Shown: positions 24,118 through 29,781 of the stretch, in pieces
How the letters are laid out: the number at the start of each line of letters is the position of its first letter
Position numbering within the stretch: position 1 is the first letter of the stretch
Assembly: GCF_008727775.1 (NCBI RefSeq)
Contig: NZ_CP044232.1
Location: forward strand, 2,170,001-2,234,000
DNA from: Microbacterium lushaniae
GTDB lineage: Bacteria; Actinomycetota; Actinomycetes; Actinomycetales; Microbacteriaceae
Reading direction: 5' to 3'
DNA: 64,000 nt
Notes under the pieces: model-generated
Told to the model about the DNA's origin: nothing
The model's database searches: none
The model's input: only the letters and a program-made list of their open reading frames with translations
Program-made: the position numbers and the translations under genes

Positions 24118-24144
24118 TGTCACAGATCGGCCCCCTCGGCGGTC
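24118..24144 (+). promoter_or_regulatory. ECF41-type promoter of the first SDR/sigma unit
   Basis: TGTCACA (24118-24124), a 16-base spacer, then GGTC (24141-24144), 43 bases before the ATG at 24188. This matches the -35 element reported for ECF41 sigma factors (TGTCACA) with a GGTC in place of CGTC at -10. Three more copies of the same layout occur in the next 4 kb. Confidence 0.75.
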
Positions 24145-24187: not shown

Positions 24188-24955
24188 ATGAAGATCGTCG
24201 TCGTCGGAGGCACGGGTCTGATCGGTGCCCGCACAACCGCACTGCTCAGGTCGCGCGGCCATGAGGTGATCGCGGCAGCGCGGTCGACCGGGGTGGACTC
24301 GTACACCGGCGAGGGGCTCGACGACTCGCTGGCCGGCGCGCACGTCATCGTGGACACATCCAATTCGTCGTACGTCGACGAGGCCGCCGCGCGGGAGTTC
24401 TTCTACGCCTCGACCCTGAATCTGCTGACCTTCGGTGCTGCGCACGGAGTCCGTCACCACGCGACCCTGTCGGTGGTGAACACCGAACGGCTCGCGCGGG
24501 CTCAGGGCGGCTACTTCCAGGCGAAGGCCGATCAGGAGAGGCTCATCACGACGTCGGCGCGGCCGTACACGCTCGTCCACGCGACGCAGTTCTTCGAGTT
24601 CGTCCGCAGCATCACCGACTCCGCCACGCAAGGCGGAGTCGCGCGCCTGCCCGACGCGCTCATCCGGCCGATGGCCGCCGACGACGTCGCAGCGGCCGTG
24701 GCCGCCGCCGCGGAGGCGGAGCCTCGCCGCGGCATCGTCGAGCACGCCGGACCCGAGGTCTTCGAACTGCGCGACCTCGCCGTGCGGGAGATGAGGTCGC
24801 GGCGGGACGACCGCGAGGTGATCGCCGATCCGCTGGGCACGTACTTCGGTGCCCGGCTGTCCCGTCACGACCTCCTCCCCTCCCCCGGCGCGCACCTCGC
24901 CGCCACGCGGTTCGGCGACTGGCAGCAGCGGGGGCGCCTCGTCAGTTCGCGCTGA
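24188..24955 (+). CDS. NAD(P)-binding SDR/NmrA-like oxidoreductase, paralogue 1
   Basis: 255 residues from ATG 24188. The Rossmann motif KIVVVGGTGLIG is at the N-terminus; STGVDSYTGEGLDDSLAGAH and YTLVHATQFFEFVRS are shared with the two paralogues at 25831 and 28999. An atypical SDR of the NmrA/epimerase kind; no YxxxK is evident. Genes of this kind are common neighbours and targets of ECF41 sigma factors. The sigma gene follows 85 bases downstream and is probably in the same transcript. Confidence 0.88.
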   Translation: MKIVVVGGTGLIGARTTALLRSRGHEVIAAARSTGVDSYTGEGLDDSLAGAHVIVDTSNSSYVDEAAAREFFYASTLNLLTFGAAHGVRHHATLSVVNTERLARAQGGYFQAKADQERLITTSARPYTLVHATQFFEFVRSITDSATQGGVARLPDALIRPMAADDVAAAVAAAAEAEPRRGIVEHAGPEVFELRDLAVREMRSRRDDREVIADPLGTYFGARLSRHDLLPSPGAHLAATRFGDWQQRGRLVSSR

Positions 24956-25040: not shown

Positions 25041-25769
25041 ATGGGTACCCACGTCGCCGGCGACGACGCTGTGACGGTCTTCGACGCCGAACGGCGACGG
25101 CTGTTCGGCGTCGCCTACCGGATCCTCGGTTCCACGCCCGACGCGGAGGACGTCGTCCAGGAGACCTGGATCCGCTGGCAGAGCTGCGACCGTGGCGAGG
25201 TCAGGAACACGGCAGCCTTCCTGACGACGGTGACGACCCGCCTGGCGATCAACGAACTGCACAGCGCGCACGCGCAACGGGAGACCTACATCGGCCCCTG
25301 GCTCCCGACTCCCGTCGACACATCGAGCGATCCGACGCTCGGCGCCGAGCGCGACGAGGCTCTGAGCCTCGCCGTCCTGCTCCTCATGGAGCGGCTGACG
25401 CCGGCCGAACGTGCGGCGTTCACCCTGCGCCATGCCTTCGACTACCCGTACGGGCAGATCGCGGAGATCCTCGGCGTCACCGCAGTCCACACCCGTCAGC
25501 TGGTGAGCCGCGCGCGCGCCCATCTGGACGCCGCCCGAGCGCACAGCGTCGACGGTGAGAGACACCGGCGCCTCTTCCGGGTGTTCCTCGATGCCGCGCG
25601 CGGAGGCGATCGTGCGCGGCTGGAGACCCTGCTGGCCGAGGATGCGGTCAGCTGCACCGACGGCGGGGGAACCGTTCACCGCACGGCGGCGCGCGAGGAT
25701 CGGGTGTCCCAAGTCCTGTGGGTCATGGCTCCGGACAAGCTGCAGCCTCTGCTTCGAACGAACGCCTGA
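25041..25769 (+). CDS. ECF41-type sigma factor with a shortened C-terminal domain
   Basis: 242 residues from ATG 25041, chosen for its CGGAGGTGAC ribosome site over the upstream GTG 25011. Sigma-2 region FDAERRRLFGVAYRILGS and PDAEDVVQETWIRW; linker signature GPWLPTP (ECF41 WLPEP-like); sigma-4 region LTPAERAAFTLRHAF and YGQIAEILGVTAVHTRQLVS. The fused SnoaL/NTF2-like tail begins normally (LEAF-type helix, then TDGGG at 25659-25670). It then jumps after about 10 residues to QVLWVMAPDKL, the end of the domain. About 50 residues present in the neighbour sigma factor are missing. Confidence 0.9.
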   Translation: MGTHVAGDDAVTVFDAERRRLFGVAYRILGSTPDAEDVVQETWIRWQSCDRGEVRNTAAFLTTVTTRLAINELHSAHAQRETYIGPWLPTPVDTSSDPTLGAERDEALSLAVLLLMERLTPAERAAFTLRHAFDYPYGQIAEILGVTAVHTRQLVSRARAHLDAARAHSVDGERHRRLFRVFLDAARGGDRARLETLLAEDAVSCTDGGGTVHRTAAREDRVSQVLWVMAPDKLQPLLRTNA

Positions 25770-25830: not shown

Positions 25831-26592
25831 CTAACGACGGGGCGGATTGGCCGGAAGCCACTCGTCCAGGCTCGTCGTGAAGATCTGGGCGCCCTGGGCC
25901 GGGAGGAGCGTCTGCTTCGAGATGTGCGCGCCGTAGTACTGCGCGTCGGGATCCTGCACCACCTGTCGCGGATCGTTCCGGAAGGCCAGGCCCCGGCGCA
26001 CGAACTCGTCCATCGTGAACTGCTCCGGCCCGGCGATCTCGATATCGCCGTTGACGGGTTCGCCGGCCGCGGTGCGTGCCACGGCGGTGGCGACGTCCTC
26101 GGCGGCCATCGGCTGCATGAGCGCGCCGGGCAGGTGCACCGTGTGGTCGCCGTCGGTGGAGATGTCGGCGATGGATCCCAAGAACTCGAAGAACTGTGTG
26201 GCGTGCACCAGGGAGTAGGGGATACCGGATTCGCGGATGAGGGTCTCCTGCGCCGACTTCGCGCGGAAGTACGGGATGTTCTGCGGACGATCGGTCCCGA
26301 CGATGGTGAGCGCGACGTGATGCCCCACGCCGGCCGCCGCCTCGGCGGCGAGGAGATTCGTGGTCGACGTGGTGAAGAAGTGCATCACGTCGTCGTCCGC
26401 GAAGGAGGGCGAGTTCGAGACGTCCACGACGACCTGAGCGCCGGCGAGCGCCTCGGACAGCCCCTCGCCGGTGAGGCTGTTGACGCCGGTGTTGGGGGCT
26501 GCGGCAACGGCGTCGTGCCCGTGCTCCGTCAGCTTGGCGACCACCTTCGAGCCGATCAGACCCGTGCCGCCGATGACGACGATCTTTGCCAT
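25831..26592 (-). CDS. NAD(P)-binding SDR/NmrA-like oxidoreductase, paralogue 2
   Basis: 253 residues from ATG 26592 (MAKIVVIGGTGLIGSKVVAKL). It shares NTGVNSLTGEGLSEALAGAQ and YSLVHATQFFEFLGS with the other two copies. A lone gene on the minus strand with its own ECF41-type promoter 49 bases upstream. The substrate is unknown; such proteins often reduce or isomerise small carbonyl compounds. Confidence 0.9.
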   Translation of the reverse strand: MAKIVVIGGTGLIGSKVVAKLTEHGHDAVAAAPNTGVNSLTGEGLSEALAGAQVVVDVSNSPSFADDDVMHFFTTSTTNLLAAEAAAGVGHHVALTIVGTDRPQNIPYFRAKSAQETLIRESGIPYSLVHATQFFEFLGSIADISTDGDHTVHLPGALMQPMAAEDVATAVARTAAGEPVNGDIEIAGPEQFTMDEFVRRGLAFRNDPRQVVQDPDAQYYGAHISKQTLLPAQGAQIFTTSLDEWLPANPPRR

Positions 26593-26640: not shown

Positions 26641-26667
26641 GACCGGAGCAGTCACCGATGTGTGACG
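26641..26667 (-). promoter_or_regulatory. ECF41-type promoter of SDR paralogue 2
   Basis: On the minus strand, CGTCACA (26667-26661), 16 bases, then GGTC (26644-26641), followed by AT. It overlaps the stop end of the SnoaL-like gene by a base at 26667-26668. Confidence 0.75.
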
Positions 26668-27084
26668 TCACGACGACCTGTTCCAGCGGGAGAGCTTGTC
26701 GGGGTTCACCACGACCCAGACGGTGGCGATCCGACGCCGGCGAACCGCCGTCACGACGACCGCCATCACGCCCGCGCGACGCCGCAGGACCAGTGCCGGT
26801 GCACCGTTGACGGAGACGACCCTCGCCGTGGCGCGCGCGTCGGGGGGCAGCACATCGAGAAGAGCGGCCGCCACGGCGGTGCGCCCGCGGACCGGTGCCG
26901 TGGGCGCCGGGACGCGTCCGCCTCCGTCCACGACGAGGGTCACGGTCGCGTGGAGTGTCGCCGCCACGGCAGCCGTACGACCGCTCGCCACCGCATCCCG
27001 GAGAGCGTCGACGGCGGTGGGTCTGCCGCCGGTGGTCCGCTCCCGGGCACGCTTCCCGCACGTGGGTCCGCGCCCGGCCGTCAT
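26668..27084 (-). CDS. Stand-alone SnoaL/NTF2-like protein carrying the ECF41 tail motifs
   Basis: 138 residues from ATG 27084, overlapping the sigma gene stop as ATGA. The sequence has no sigma region. It carries the two signatures of the ECF41 C-terminal domain in the right order and spacing: VVDGGGRVPAP (DGGGR at 26914-26928) and VWVVVNPDKLSRW (NPDKL) at the end. The neighbouring sigma factors have changed versions (DGGGT/APDKL and DGNGV/SPDKL). It looks like a detached regulatory domain that could act in trans on a sigma factor; that role is inferred. Arg/Ala-rich in the first 40 residues. Confidence 0.8.
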   Translation of the reverse strand: MTAGRGPTCGKRARERTTGGRPTAVDALRDAVASGRTAAVAATLHATVTLVVDGGGRVPAPTAPVRGRTAVAAALLDVLPPDARATARVVSVNGAPALVLRRRAGVMAVVVTAVRRRRIATVWVVVNPDKLSRWNRSS

Positions 27085-28039: not shown

Positions 28040-28066
28040 GACCGGACGGCGCGCCGTGTTGTGACG
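28040..28066 (-). promoter_or_regulatory. ECF41-type promoter of the sigma factor/SnoaL unit
   Basis: On the minus strand, CGTCACA (28066-28060), 16 bases, GGTC (28043-28040), 56 bases before the sigma ATG. It is back to back with the next promoter on the plus strand. Confidence 0.75.
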
Positions 28067-28121: not shown

Positions 28122-28148
28122 CGTCACATCCCGCCGGCCTGACCGGTC
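28122..28148 (+). promoter_or_regulatory. ECF41-type promoter of the hydrolase/SDR3 unit
   Basis: CGTCACA (28122-28128), 16 bases, GGTC (28145-28148), followed by AT as in the promoter at 26641. It lies 43 bases before the hydrolase ATG, the same distance as in the promoter at 24118. Confidence 0.75.
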
Positions 28149-28191: not shown

Positions 28192-28938
28192 ATGACCGAT
28201 CCCCAGCCCACCATCGTCCTGGTCCACGGCGCCTTCGCCGAGTCGGCCTCGTGGAACGGCGTCATCGCGCAACTGCAGGGTCACGGTGTCGCCGTCGTGG
28301 CCGCGGCCAATCCGCTGCGGAGCCTTGCCGGCGACGCCGCCTACGTGCGCGATGTCATCGCCTCCACCGGCGGACCCGTCATCCTCGTGGGCCATTCCTA
28401 CGGCGGAATGGTGATCACCGAAGCGGCCTCGCGCAACGACGCCGTCGTGGCGCTGGTCTACGTCGCCGCATTCGTGCCCGACACCGGGCAGAGCGCATTC
28501 GAGCTGTCGGCGAGCGAGCCGGGGAGCACCCTGGCCGACGCGCTGGACGCGTATCCCGTCCACAGCGGCGGTGACGAGTTCGTCATCCGGCAGGATGTCT
28601 TCGCCCAGCAGTTCGCCGCCGATGTGCCGTCGGCGCACGCGACGCTGATGGCGGCGACGCAGCGGCCCGTGACGCAGGCCGCCCTCACCGAGGGGCTCCC
28701 GACCGATCGGCCCGCGTGGCGGGACATCCCCTCGTGGCACGTCTTCGGCGAGTTGGACCGGAACATCCCCGCCGCCGTCCACCGCGCGGGAGCAGCACGC
28801 GCCGGCGCCCGCGAGACACGCGAGATCACCGGTGCGTCGCACGCGGTGTCGGTGTCTCAGCCGACGGCCGTGGCCGACACCATCGCCGCCGCGGGCAGGG
28901 CCTCCCGAGCCGGCCGCGCGGCAGCCGTCACCGTCTGA
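28192..28938 (+). CDS. Alpha/beta hydrolase
   Basis: 248 residues from ATG 28192. IVLVHGAFAESASWNGVI forms the oxyanion part; the nucleophile elbow is GHSYGGM (Ser); the acid is probably in VFGELDRNIP (Asp); the His is in GASHAVSVSQP. It resembles the small esterase-like hydrolases often found beside stress regulators. First gene of a unit with SDR paralogue 3, downstream of an ECF41-type promoter. Confidence 0.92.
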   Translation: MTDPQPTIVLVHGAFAESASWNGVIAQLQGHGVAVVAAANPLRSLAGDAAYVRDVIASTGGPVILVGHSYGGMVITEAASRNDAVVALVYVAAFVPDTGQSAFELSASEPGSTLADALDAYPVHSGGDEFVIRQDVFAQQFAADVPSAHATLMAATQRPVTQAALTEGLPTDRPAWRDIPSWHVFGELDRNIPAAVHRAGAARAGARETREITGASHAVSVSQPTAVADTIAAAGRASRAGRAAAVTV

Positions 28939-28998: not shown

Positions 28999-29781
28999 AT
29001 GAGAATCGTCCTCGTGGGCGGGACGGGCCGGATCGGCACCCGTGTCGCCGCCAAGCTGGTCGGGCACGACGTGGTCGTGGCCGCGCGCTCGACGGGGGTG
29101 GACTCGGCGTCGGGAGCCGGGCTGCGCGATGCACTGCGCGGCGCGGAGGTCGTCGTCGACGTGACCCGCCCACCCATCTCCGATGGTGCTCCGGCCGACG
29201 CCTTCTTCAGGCGGTCCACGGCCAACCTTCTCCGCGAGGGCCGGAACGCGGGCGCCCGTCATCATGTCGCGCTCACGATCGTCGGGACGCGCCGTCACAC
29301 CGACATCCCCTACTACGCAGCGAAGGCGATGCAAGAACGCCTGATCCGCGGGTCCGGCACCCCCTACACGCTCGTGCACGCGACGCAGTTCTTCGAGTTC
29401 GTCGGCGAGGTCGCCGACGCAGCCACGGCGGGCGGCTCCGTGCGGCTGCCGCGCGCGCTCGTCCAGCCGATGGCAGCCGGCGATGTGGCGGACGCACTCG
29501 TGCGCACCATCCTCGCGACTCCCGCGAACGACGACATCGAGATCGCAGGGCCCGAGCGCTTCCATCTCGATGACTTCGTGCGGCGAGCGCTCGTGGCACG
29601 CAACGACTCCCGCCTTGTCCTGGCGGATCCCCGTGCGCGCTATTTCGGCGGACGCATCGGGATGCGCACCCTTCTTCCGGGCCGGCGTGCCGCCATGTCC
29701 GCCACGCGCTTCGACACGTTGCTCGCCGAGCTCCGCACGAGTGCCGTGACGACCATCAATCCCCTACCCGAGGAGCTGTGA
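28999..29781 (+). CDS. NAD(P)-binding SDR/NmrA-like oxidoreductase, paralogue 3
   Basis: 260 residues from ATG 28999 with ribosome site AGAGGAGCAG. MRIVLVGGTGRIGTRVAAKL is the nucleotide-binding start; STGVDSASGAGLRDALRGAE and YTLVHATQFFEFVGE are shared with paralogues 1 and 2. It has no promoter of its own that I can see, and probably follows the hydrolase on one transcript. Confidence 0.9.
   Translation: MRIVLVGGTGRIGTRVAAKLVGHDVVVAARSTGVDSASGAGLRDALRGAEVVVDVTRPPISDGAPADAFFRRSTANLLREGRNAGARHHVALTIVGTRRHTDIPYYAAKAMQERLIRGSGTPYTLVHATQFFEFVGEVADAATAGGSVRLPRALVQPMAAGDVADALVRTILATPANDDIEIAGPERFHLDDFVRRALVARNDSRLVLADPRARYFGGRIGMRTLLPGRRAAMSATRFDTLLAELRTSAVTTINPLPEEL

Follow-up and report, generated by a model that had tools for sequence, protein, structure and literature searches.

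A detached ECF41-type tail gene overlaps an ECF41 sigma factor gene in Microbacterium

Organization of the locus

The window, i.e., the whole 64-kb stretch of Microbacterium lushaniae DNA that was analyzed, contains a locus with two ECF41 sigma factors (sigma1 and sigma2), a detached ECF41-type tail, genes for NAD(P)-binding proteins and a hydrolase, and matches to the ECF41-type promoter pattern (Table 1). The preliminary description of this locus had the coordinates of the tail gene, its length of 138 residues and the absence of a sigma region correct; the gene is located on the minus strand. Its ATG (27084-27082) overlaps the TGA stop codon of sigma2 (27083-27081), so that the ATGA start described earlier is indeed seen in the window. 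The start of sigma2 was picked downstream of its promoter, the longest open reading frame beginning at 28265.

Table 1. Features of the detached-tail locus, with positions in the window
Feature	Position	Strand	Remarks
ECF41-type promoter, SDR1	24118..24144	plus	pattern match
SDR1, NAD(P)-binding protein	24188..24955	plus	start MKIVVVGG
sigma1, second ECF41 sigma factor of the locus	25041..25769	plus	APDKL; ~52 tail residues deleted in frame
SDR/NmrA-type NAD(P)-binding protein	25831..26592	minus	start MAKIVVIGG; likely target gene
ECF41-type promoter, SDR gene	26641..26667	minus	pattern match; directly after tail-gene stop
Detached ECF41-type tail, 138 aa	26668..27084	minus	DGGGR and NPDKL; no sigma regions
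sigma2, ECF41 sigma factor, 300 aa	27081..27983	minus	from MDDTPRAQ; complete own tail
ECF41-type promoter, sigma2/tail operon	28040..28066	minus	pattern match
ECF41-type promoter, hydrolase/SDR3 unit	28122..28148	plus	pattern match
Alpha/beta hydrolase	28192..28938	plus	likely target gene
SDR3, NAD(P)-binding protein	28999..29781	plus	behind hydrolase

Family and fold of the detached tail

No Pfam match to sigma regions 2 and 4 was obtained for the tail protein, and the two motifs reported for it, DGGGR and NPDKL, are both present in its sequence. DGGGK is a signature of the ECF41 tail. NPDKL is given as a signature of the ECF41 extension in the available text of PMC7730460. When general conservation was examined, the ECF41 tail signatures were the most conserved residues of the detached tails. 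Where such tails are named in public annotation, they appear as hypothetical protein, RNA polymerase sigma-70 factor or siderophore-interacting protein.

The preliminary description had considered a better fit to SnoaL enzymes as evidence against its reading; the outcome was the opposite. Against Pfam SnoaL_2 the tail protein scored 20.6 bits, below the cut-off of 27, and in NCBIfam it aligned to the SigJ tail, i.e., positions 174-290 of the 293 of profile PRK09636, with 71.2 bits, a value far beneath the whole-protein cut-off of 271, as expected of a tail alone. The top PDB profile match was likewise the SigJ tail (5xe7, residues 174-298, E 1.6e-11). Because the SigJ-tail match lies far above that to SnoaL_2 and is joined by the PDB profile match, the protein is, judged from its sequence, an ECF41-type tail, and an ordinary SnoaL enzyme as the best family was rejected on the three profile matches.

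The fold of the protein was predicted with confidence and is NTF2-like, as in SigJ. Structure comparison indicated that this fold is common to many enzymes; the comparison re-aligned matches supplied by Foldseek itself, so that it gives no information on whether anti-sigma or enzyme folds are lacking. Such a fold would suit a protein that serves the SDR/hydrolase pathway as an enzyme or by binding a ligand and makes no contact with a sigma factor, but the top-conserved residues are those of ECF41 and the SigJ tail fits far better than SnoaL_2; we regard this alternative as unlikely.

The two sigma factors

Sigma2 was matched by Pfam region 2 (48.8 bits) and region 4 (41.3 bits), with SnoaL_2 slightly below its cut-off of 27 (24.4 bits), and it exceeded the cut-offs of the family models TIGR02957 (335.2 bits) and PRK09636 (289 bits). 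By these matches sigma2 is an ECF41 sigma factor. The linker that joins regions 2 and 4 of sigma2 has an intact WLPEP motif, which is present in 70 of the 72 paired sigma factors. The canonical DGGGx and NPDKL are absent from its tail, which has DGNGV and SPDKL instead, a variant common to its clade. Since sigma2 retains a complete tail of its own, the locus is, from its gene content, an extra tail added to a complete sigma factor and no split protein.

Altered signatures had been claimed for both sigma factors. This holds for sigma2 and for APDKL of sigma1, while DGGGT of sigma1 is not an alteration, the fifth residue being variable. An in-frame deletion, seen by comparison with the full-length ortholog in L061, has removed about 52 residues from the tail fold of sigma1 but left both end motifs. 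Disrupted tails are also found in four to five other unpaired ECF41 factors (L112, L131, L151, L152, L153). No conserved link between sigma1 and the detached tail was found among the loci compared, and sigma1 was rejected as its conserved partner in favor of sigma2. Two more ECF41-type fused tails (L002, L003) exist elsewhere in the M. lushaniae genome.

Distribution in Microbacterium

The preliminary description had proposed a profile search for stand-alone tails beside sigma genes. A profile built from nine detached tails was searched against 366 Microbacterium genomes, of which 207 matched. We read 80 regions, selected by score and including one short frame (L140), and left weaker matches unclassified. 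Together with the window these gave 81 loci, of which five contain ordinary fused tails and 76 (75 of the 80 regions plus the window) a tail without an in-frame sigma core. The 76 loci come from 75 genomes, G313 having two, and the detached tail is thus present in at least 75 of the 366 genomes, a lower bound. In 74 of the 76 loci the gene immediately upstream of the tail encodes an ECF41 sigma factor or is what remains of such a gene. The sigma core is in frame in 72, including L064 with a 62-codon remnant only; the sigma frame is broken in L090 and L102, and no sigma gene is directly upstream in L127 and L128. The exact RTGA overlap between sigma stop and tail start was found in 69 of the 76 loci, and with this degree of conservation it is not due to chance. 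In L077, L088, L129 and L132 the sigma stop likewise lies within ATGA, the tail frame not being read from there.

The reverse search with sigma2 in 198 Microbacterium genomes gave 44 matches above 385 bits, followed by a gap down to 326 bits. For 40 of these 44, a tail adjoins on the same strand, the exceptions being G001, G144, G019 and G102. In G102 a tail lies near the sigma2-type gene on the opposite strand; for G001 and G144 no detached tail was noted in the tail-profile search of the 366 genomes.

G019 has both halves of the pair at separate places. Its single sigma2-type gene (L142) is followed by ATG AGC CGC TGA at the expected start of the tail gene, i.e., a vestigial frame, and an intact detached tail lies beside a sigma remnant (L064) on a different contig. 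According to the trees, the two halves derive from different sublineages. Each locus has lost the opposite half, which we take as a natural hint that the tail may act in trans.

Promoters and putative regulon

According to the available text of Wecke et al. 2012 (PMC3426412), the ECF41 promoter TGTCACA-n16-CGTC lies ahead of COE and sigma genes. The pattern YGTCACA-N16-SGTC matched four sites in the 64-kb window, in comparison to 0.38 expected; all four end in GGTC instead of the published CGTC and are otherwise nearly identical to it. Each stands before a different unit, namely SDR1, the SDR gene that follows the tail gene, the sigma2/tail operon and the hydrolase. Because all four lie at this locus and only 0.38 were expected, the locus is, on the promoter pattern, a putative small regulon of its own. 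Nine sites were found genome-wide, five of them outside this locus. SDR-type neighbors also belong to published ECF41 systems, as the 'epimerase' class of COE genes in the available text of PMC3426412.

For the survey of the 76 loci a slightly looser pattern was used, which matched 8 of 380 random stretches in a control. Relatives of the downstream SDR are preceded by it in 74 of 77 cases and those of SDR1 in 36 of 44; for relatives of SDR3 the count is one of three and for those of the hydrolase 13 of 29, with two of these 13 (L071, L079) at impossible distances. Among the paired sigma genes, 42 of 71 are preceded by an ECF41-type promoter.

An SDR is encoded within about 4 kb in 75 of the 76 loci, and in L111 the detached tail reads in frame into the SDR, both of which would fit a pathway enzyme. 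However, the SDR is directly downstream of the tail in only 39 of the 76 loci, in contrast to the sigma overlap in 69. The shared frame of L111 looks accidental: its linker is the SDR promoter region, which the fusion thus crosses, and the SDR retains its own start. A functional fusion was rejected on these grounds.

Selection and co-divergence

In the 21 closest pairs of detached tails (dS <0.5), dN/dS ranged from 0.11 to 0.39; over all 2617 pairs, where synonymous sites are near saturation, the median was 0.66. Judged from the close pairs, the detached tail is under purifying selection, and a pseudogene was rejected. A functionless tail, decaying as the leftover of a second sigma factor, appears very improbable to us. 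Partners with decayed cores in other genera (see below) would agree with such decay, as would L077, L129 and L132, where the open tail frame does not reach the overlapping ATG, and the divergence of the partner, which is much faster than that of the sigma factor (mean distance 0.63 vs 0.27-0.29). Against it stand, besides the dN/dS of the close pairs, the open frames with conserved overlap across many species, the confidently predicted fold, and G019, which retains the tail beside a deleted sigma.

Partner distances tracked those of the sigma tail (r 0.67; partial 0.52 after SDR) and of the sigma core (r 0.56; partial 0.46). They also tracked the SDR (r 0.58; partial 0.48 after sigma core), as a pathway enzyme would predict. 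Since the SDR is followed almost as well, these correlations do not decide between partnership with the sigma factor and with the SDR.

Motif pattern in sigma/tail pairs

The changes in the sigma2-type tail are from DGGG to DGNG and from NPDKL to S/APxKL. Among the 72 aligned paired sigma factors, 69 carry DGNG and only one has the N of NPxKL, which is retained in 65 of the 73 detached tails of the genus. For the 69 genus pairs with both sides aligned, N is in the partner alone in 62, in both tails in one and in neither in six; at the third residue of the first motif, N in the sigma factor is combined with G in the partner in 62 of the 69. In L098, where the paired sigma lies outside the sigma2 clade, NPAKL is retained and N is found in both tails.

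As a control, we used 49 unpaired sigma factors of the genus and order, from which those with disrupted tails, five without the second and four without the first motif, were dropped. Of these unpaired fused ECF41 proteins, 42 of 44 retain N, the two that do not being sigma1 of the window and its ortholog, and 45 of 45 have the third G. Four sigma factors of the sigma2 clade that are unpaired and carry altered motifs (L127, L142-L144) had been excluded from this control beforehand.

Some of these data count against the two-protein switch that is proposed below. The altered sigma factors are mainly one clade (support 97, in trees that are quick searches with SH-aLRT support, the window sigma2 being missing from the sigma tree owing to a duplicate filter), and the motif pattern, since it follows mainly this clade, represents few independent events. 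The four members excluded from the control have no tail directly behind them despite their altered motifs. In other genera, furthermore, the partner has lost N and the sigma retains it in 15 of 22 pairs, the motifs of which were read by eye. A strict rule, i.e., that exactly one tail per pair retains N, fails: of 91 pairs, 79 have it in one tail, six in both and six in neither.

A putative two-protein ECF41 switch

Based on conservation, gene overlap, motif pattern, promoter pattern, predicted fold and purifying selection, we lean towards the detached tail being a separate regulatory subunit of sigma2 in a two-protein ECF41 switch, most likely an inhibitory one; translational coupling, binding, inhibition, the signal and the direction of evolution are the parts that we infer. 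The tail protein would be translated right after sigma2 from one message, via the ATGA overlap. It may then bind sigma2 in trans, at the altered NTF2-like tail and/or the WLPEP linker, and provide the NPDKL-type contact that is altered in sigma2. On a signal, the tail protein would release sigma2 or change shape, and the freed sigma2 could direct transcription of the sigma2/tail operon, the SDR genes and the hydrolase gene at the YGTCACA-N16-SGTC promoters. With an inhibitory tail encoded in an autoregulated operon, negative feedback would result.

The sign of the regulation was considered in the light of two ECF41 factors with fused tails. According to the available text of PMC3426412, Ecf41Bli and Ecf41Rsp became about 20- and 120-fold more active when the distal tail was removed, and lost their activity when the entire tail was taken away. 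We favor an inhibitory role because the distal motif is altered in sigma2 and kept in the detached tail, and the distal tail inhibits in both of these factors. The same source reports Ecf41Bli to be functional without a partner in B. subtilis, a host that by its account lacks ECF41 factors, which counts against the two-protein switch.

Instead of inhibiting, the tail might pair with that of sigma2 and hold the sigma factor in an active, polymerase-competent shape. NTF2-like domains often dimerise, and several dimeric entries are among the NTF2-like structure matches. The motif nearest the proximal part is the one changed in sigma2 (DGNG), with G kept by the partner in the 62 pairs mentioned above, and the proximal ECF41 tail is required for activity in the available text of PMC3426412. 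Such a positive partner nevertheless seems rather unlikely to us: a tail gene directly behind the sigma gene is lacking for four members of the sigma2 clade, with none noted in G001 and G144, which is not compatible with a strictly needed partner unless those sigma factors are inactive.

Comparison with known systems

ECF41 is a widespread group, the tail of which is regarded as a regulator acting in cis, with no second protein involved. Members with a fused SnoaL_2-type tail (Ecf41Bli, Ecf41Rsp and SigJ of M. tuberculosis) share the tail fold, the signatures and the WLPEP linker with the system described here. In the available text of PMC3426412 the regulation of ECF41 is in cis, with no second protein; by contrast, this locus combines an extra tail gene with a sigma factor that has altered tail signatures. 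We found no detached ECF41 tail in the literature searched, the key papers on SigJ structure and on ECF classification and evolution being beyond its reach.

The nearest two-protein case found was ECF56 SigG1-RsfG of Streptomyces tsukubaensis (PMC7730460). In the available text of that source, however, RsfG lacks any Pfam domain and is not presented as a detached tail, and SigG1 belongs to another ECF group and lacks NPDKL. SigO-RsoA of Bacillus subtilis (PMC8103513, available text) resembles the present pair in that a single sigma function is spread across two co-encoded proteins, but there it is the sigma regions that are divided, whereas in the present pair nothing is missing from the sigma factor and an extra regulatory domain has a gene to itself. 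A conserved tail that is naturally separate would allow the role of the tail to be tested by addition or removal of one gene, with the sigma factor untruncated, and the altered versus retained signatures point to residues worth testing.

Origin of the detached tail

In a tree of 191 tails, 73 detached tails form a single clade (SH-aLRT 99) that is joined with 19 canonical fused tails (97) and lies apart from the tails of their own sigma factors. A tandem copy of sigma2's own tail was therefore rejected. The preliminary description had suggested a split, trans-acting version of a regulator usually found in cis. Splitting does not agree with the whole tail of sigma2 and the separate clade; trans action fits the motifs, the promoter type and G019. 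In a second tree of 109 tails, which includes 30 of the 73 genus tails, the 58 partner tails and the 51 ordinary fused tails fall without exception on opposite sides of one branch, which has moderate support (88).

A family search matched 118 of 398 genomes, genus mates included, and 30 regions were read, picked for short frames or high score. Six contain detached tails with a sigma factor, 12 'type 2' detached tails with a sigma factor, five detached tails without a directly adjacent sigma and three ordinary fused tails. In the remaining four, all from other genera and one of them from Herbiconiux gentiana (L191, L224), the downstream partner is an ECF41-like protein of 299-306 residues with a detached-type tail and a decayed sigma core; in three of these loci the partner start and the sigma stop overlap. 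In the three that were scanned, region 2 scored 16.5 or 16.0 bits or was not found (cut-off 24) and region 4 barely passed with 26.1-27.5 bits (cut-off 25.7), compared with 39.5 and 49.7 bits for regions 2 and 4 of the sigma factor next to one of these partners. The partner in L216 has lost the WLPEP linker too.

The same kind of tail was observed with weak or partial sigma cores in Streptomyces (L222, L226, L235, L239, L241, L243) and Nonomuraea (L238). These cores scored 20-62 bits with the core profile, in comparison to about 260 for the neighboring sigma factors of L222 and L226, which have DGNG and NPSKI or EPSKI and adjoin the weak-core proteins.

Because the four partners in other genera are full-length ECF41-like proteins with a decayed core, the detached tail is probably the remnant of a second ECF41 sigma factor, once located downstream of sigma2, that has lost its core. 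A step-by-step loss of the core is the simplest reading, with the direction of evolution being our inference. Extended to function, a series is possible, though somewhat doubtful, that leads from two neighboring ECF41 proteins to a weak-core partner, a partner without region 4 and finally a bare tail that controls its neighbor in trans, the two tails dividing the signature residues. If this is true, ECF41 would be a two-protein system in much of the Microbacteriaceae and perhaps in Streptomyces, and the graded partners would be a clear case of a transcription factor that loses its DNA- and polymerase-binding part and survives as a regulatory subunit. According to the available text of PMC8103513, the sigma-like domain of PhyR has degenerate promoter- and polymerase-binding parts and acts as a regulator. 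We see in it a parallel to the decayed-core partners; PhyR, however, binds an anti-sigma factor by sigma factor mimicry, whereas here the core vanishes and the tail persists.

Further arrangements of such tails were observed in the regions read. The 'type 2' detached tails (L201-L212) belong to other Microbacteriaceae, are about 125 aa long and have a DSGD-like first motif and mostly APxKL or SPxKL; they sit behind canonical ECF41 sigma factors, with RTGA at the sigma stop in 10 of the 12 by eye. A third type with a WIRL...HWN-like end (L200, L201, L203, L206, L213, L214) has no ECF41 sigma gene directly ahead. In Glaciibacter superstes (L220) the order is reversed, and the detached tail lies just before an ECF41 sigma factor with canonical DGGGV and NPGKL.
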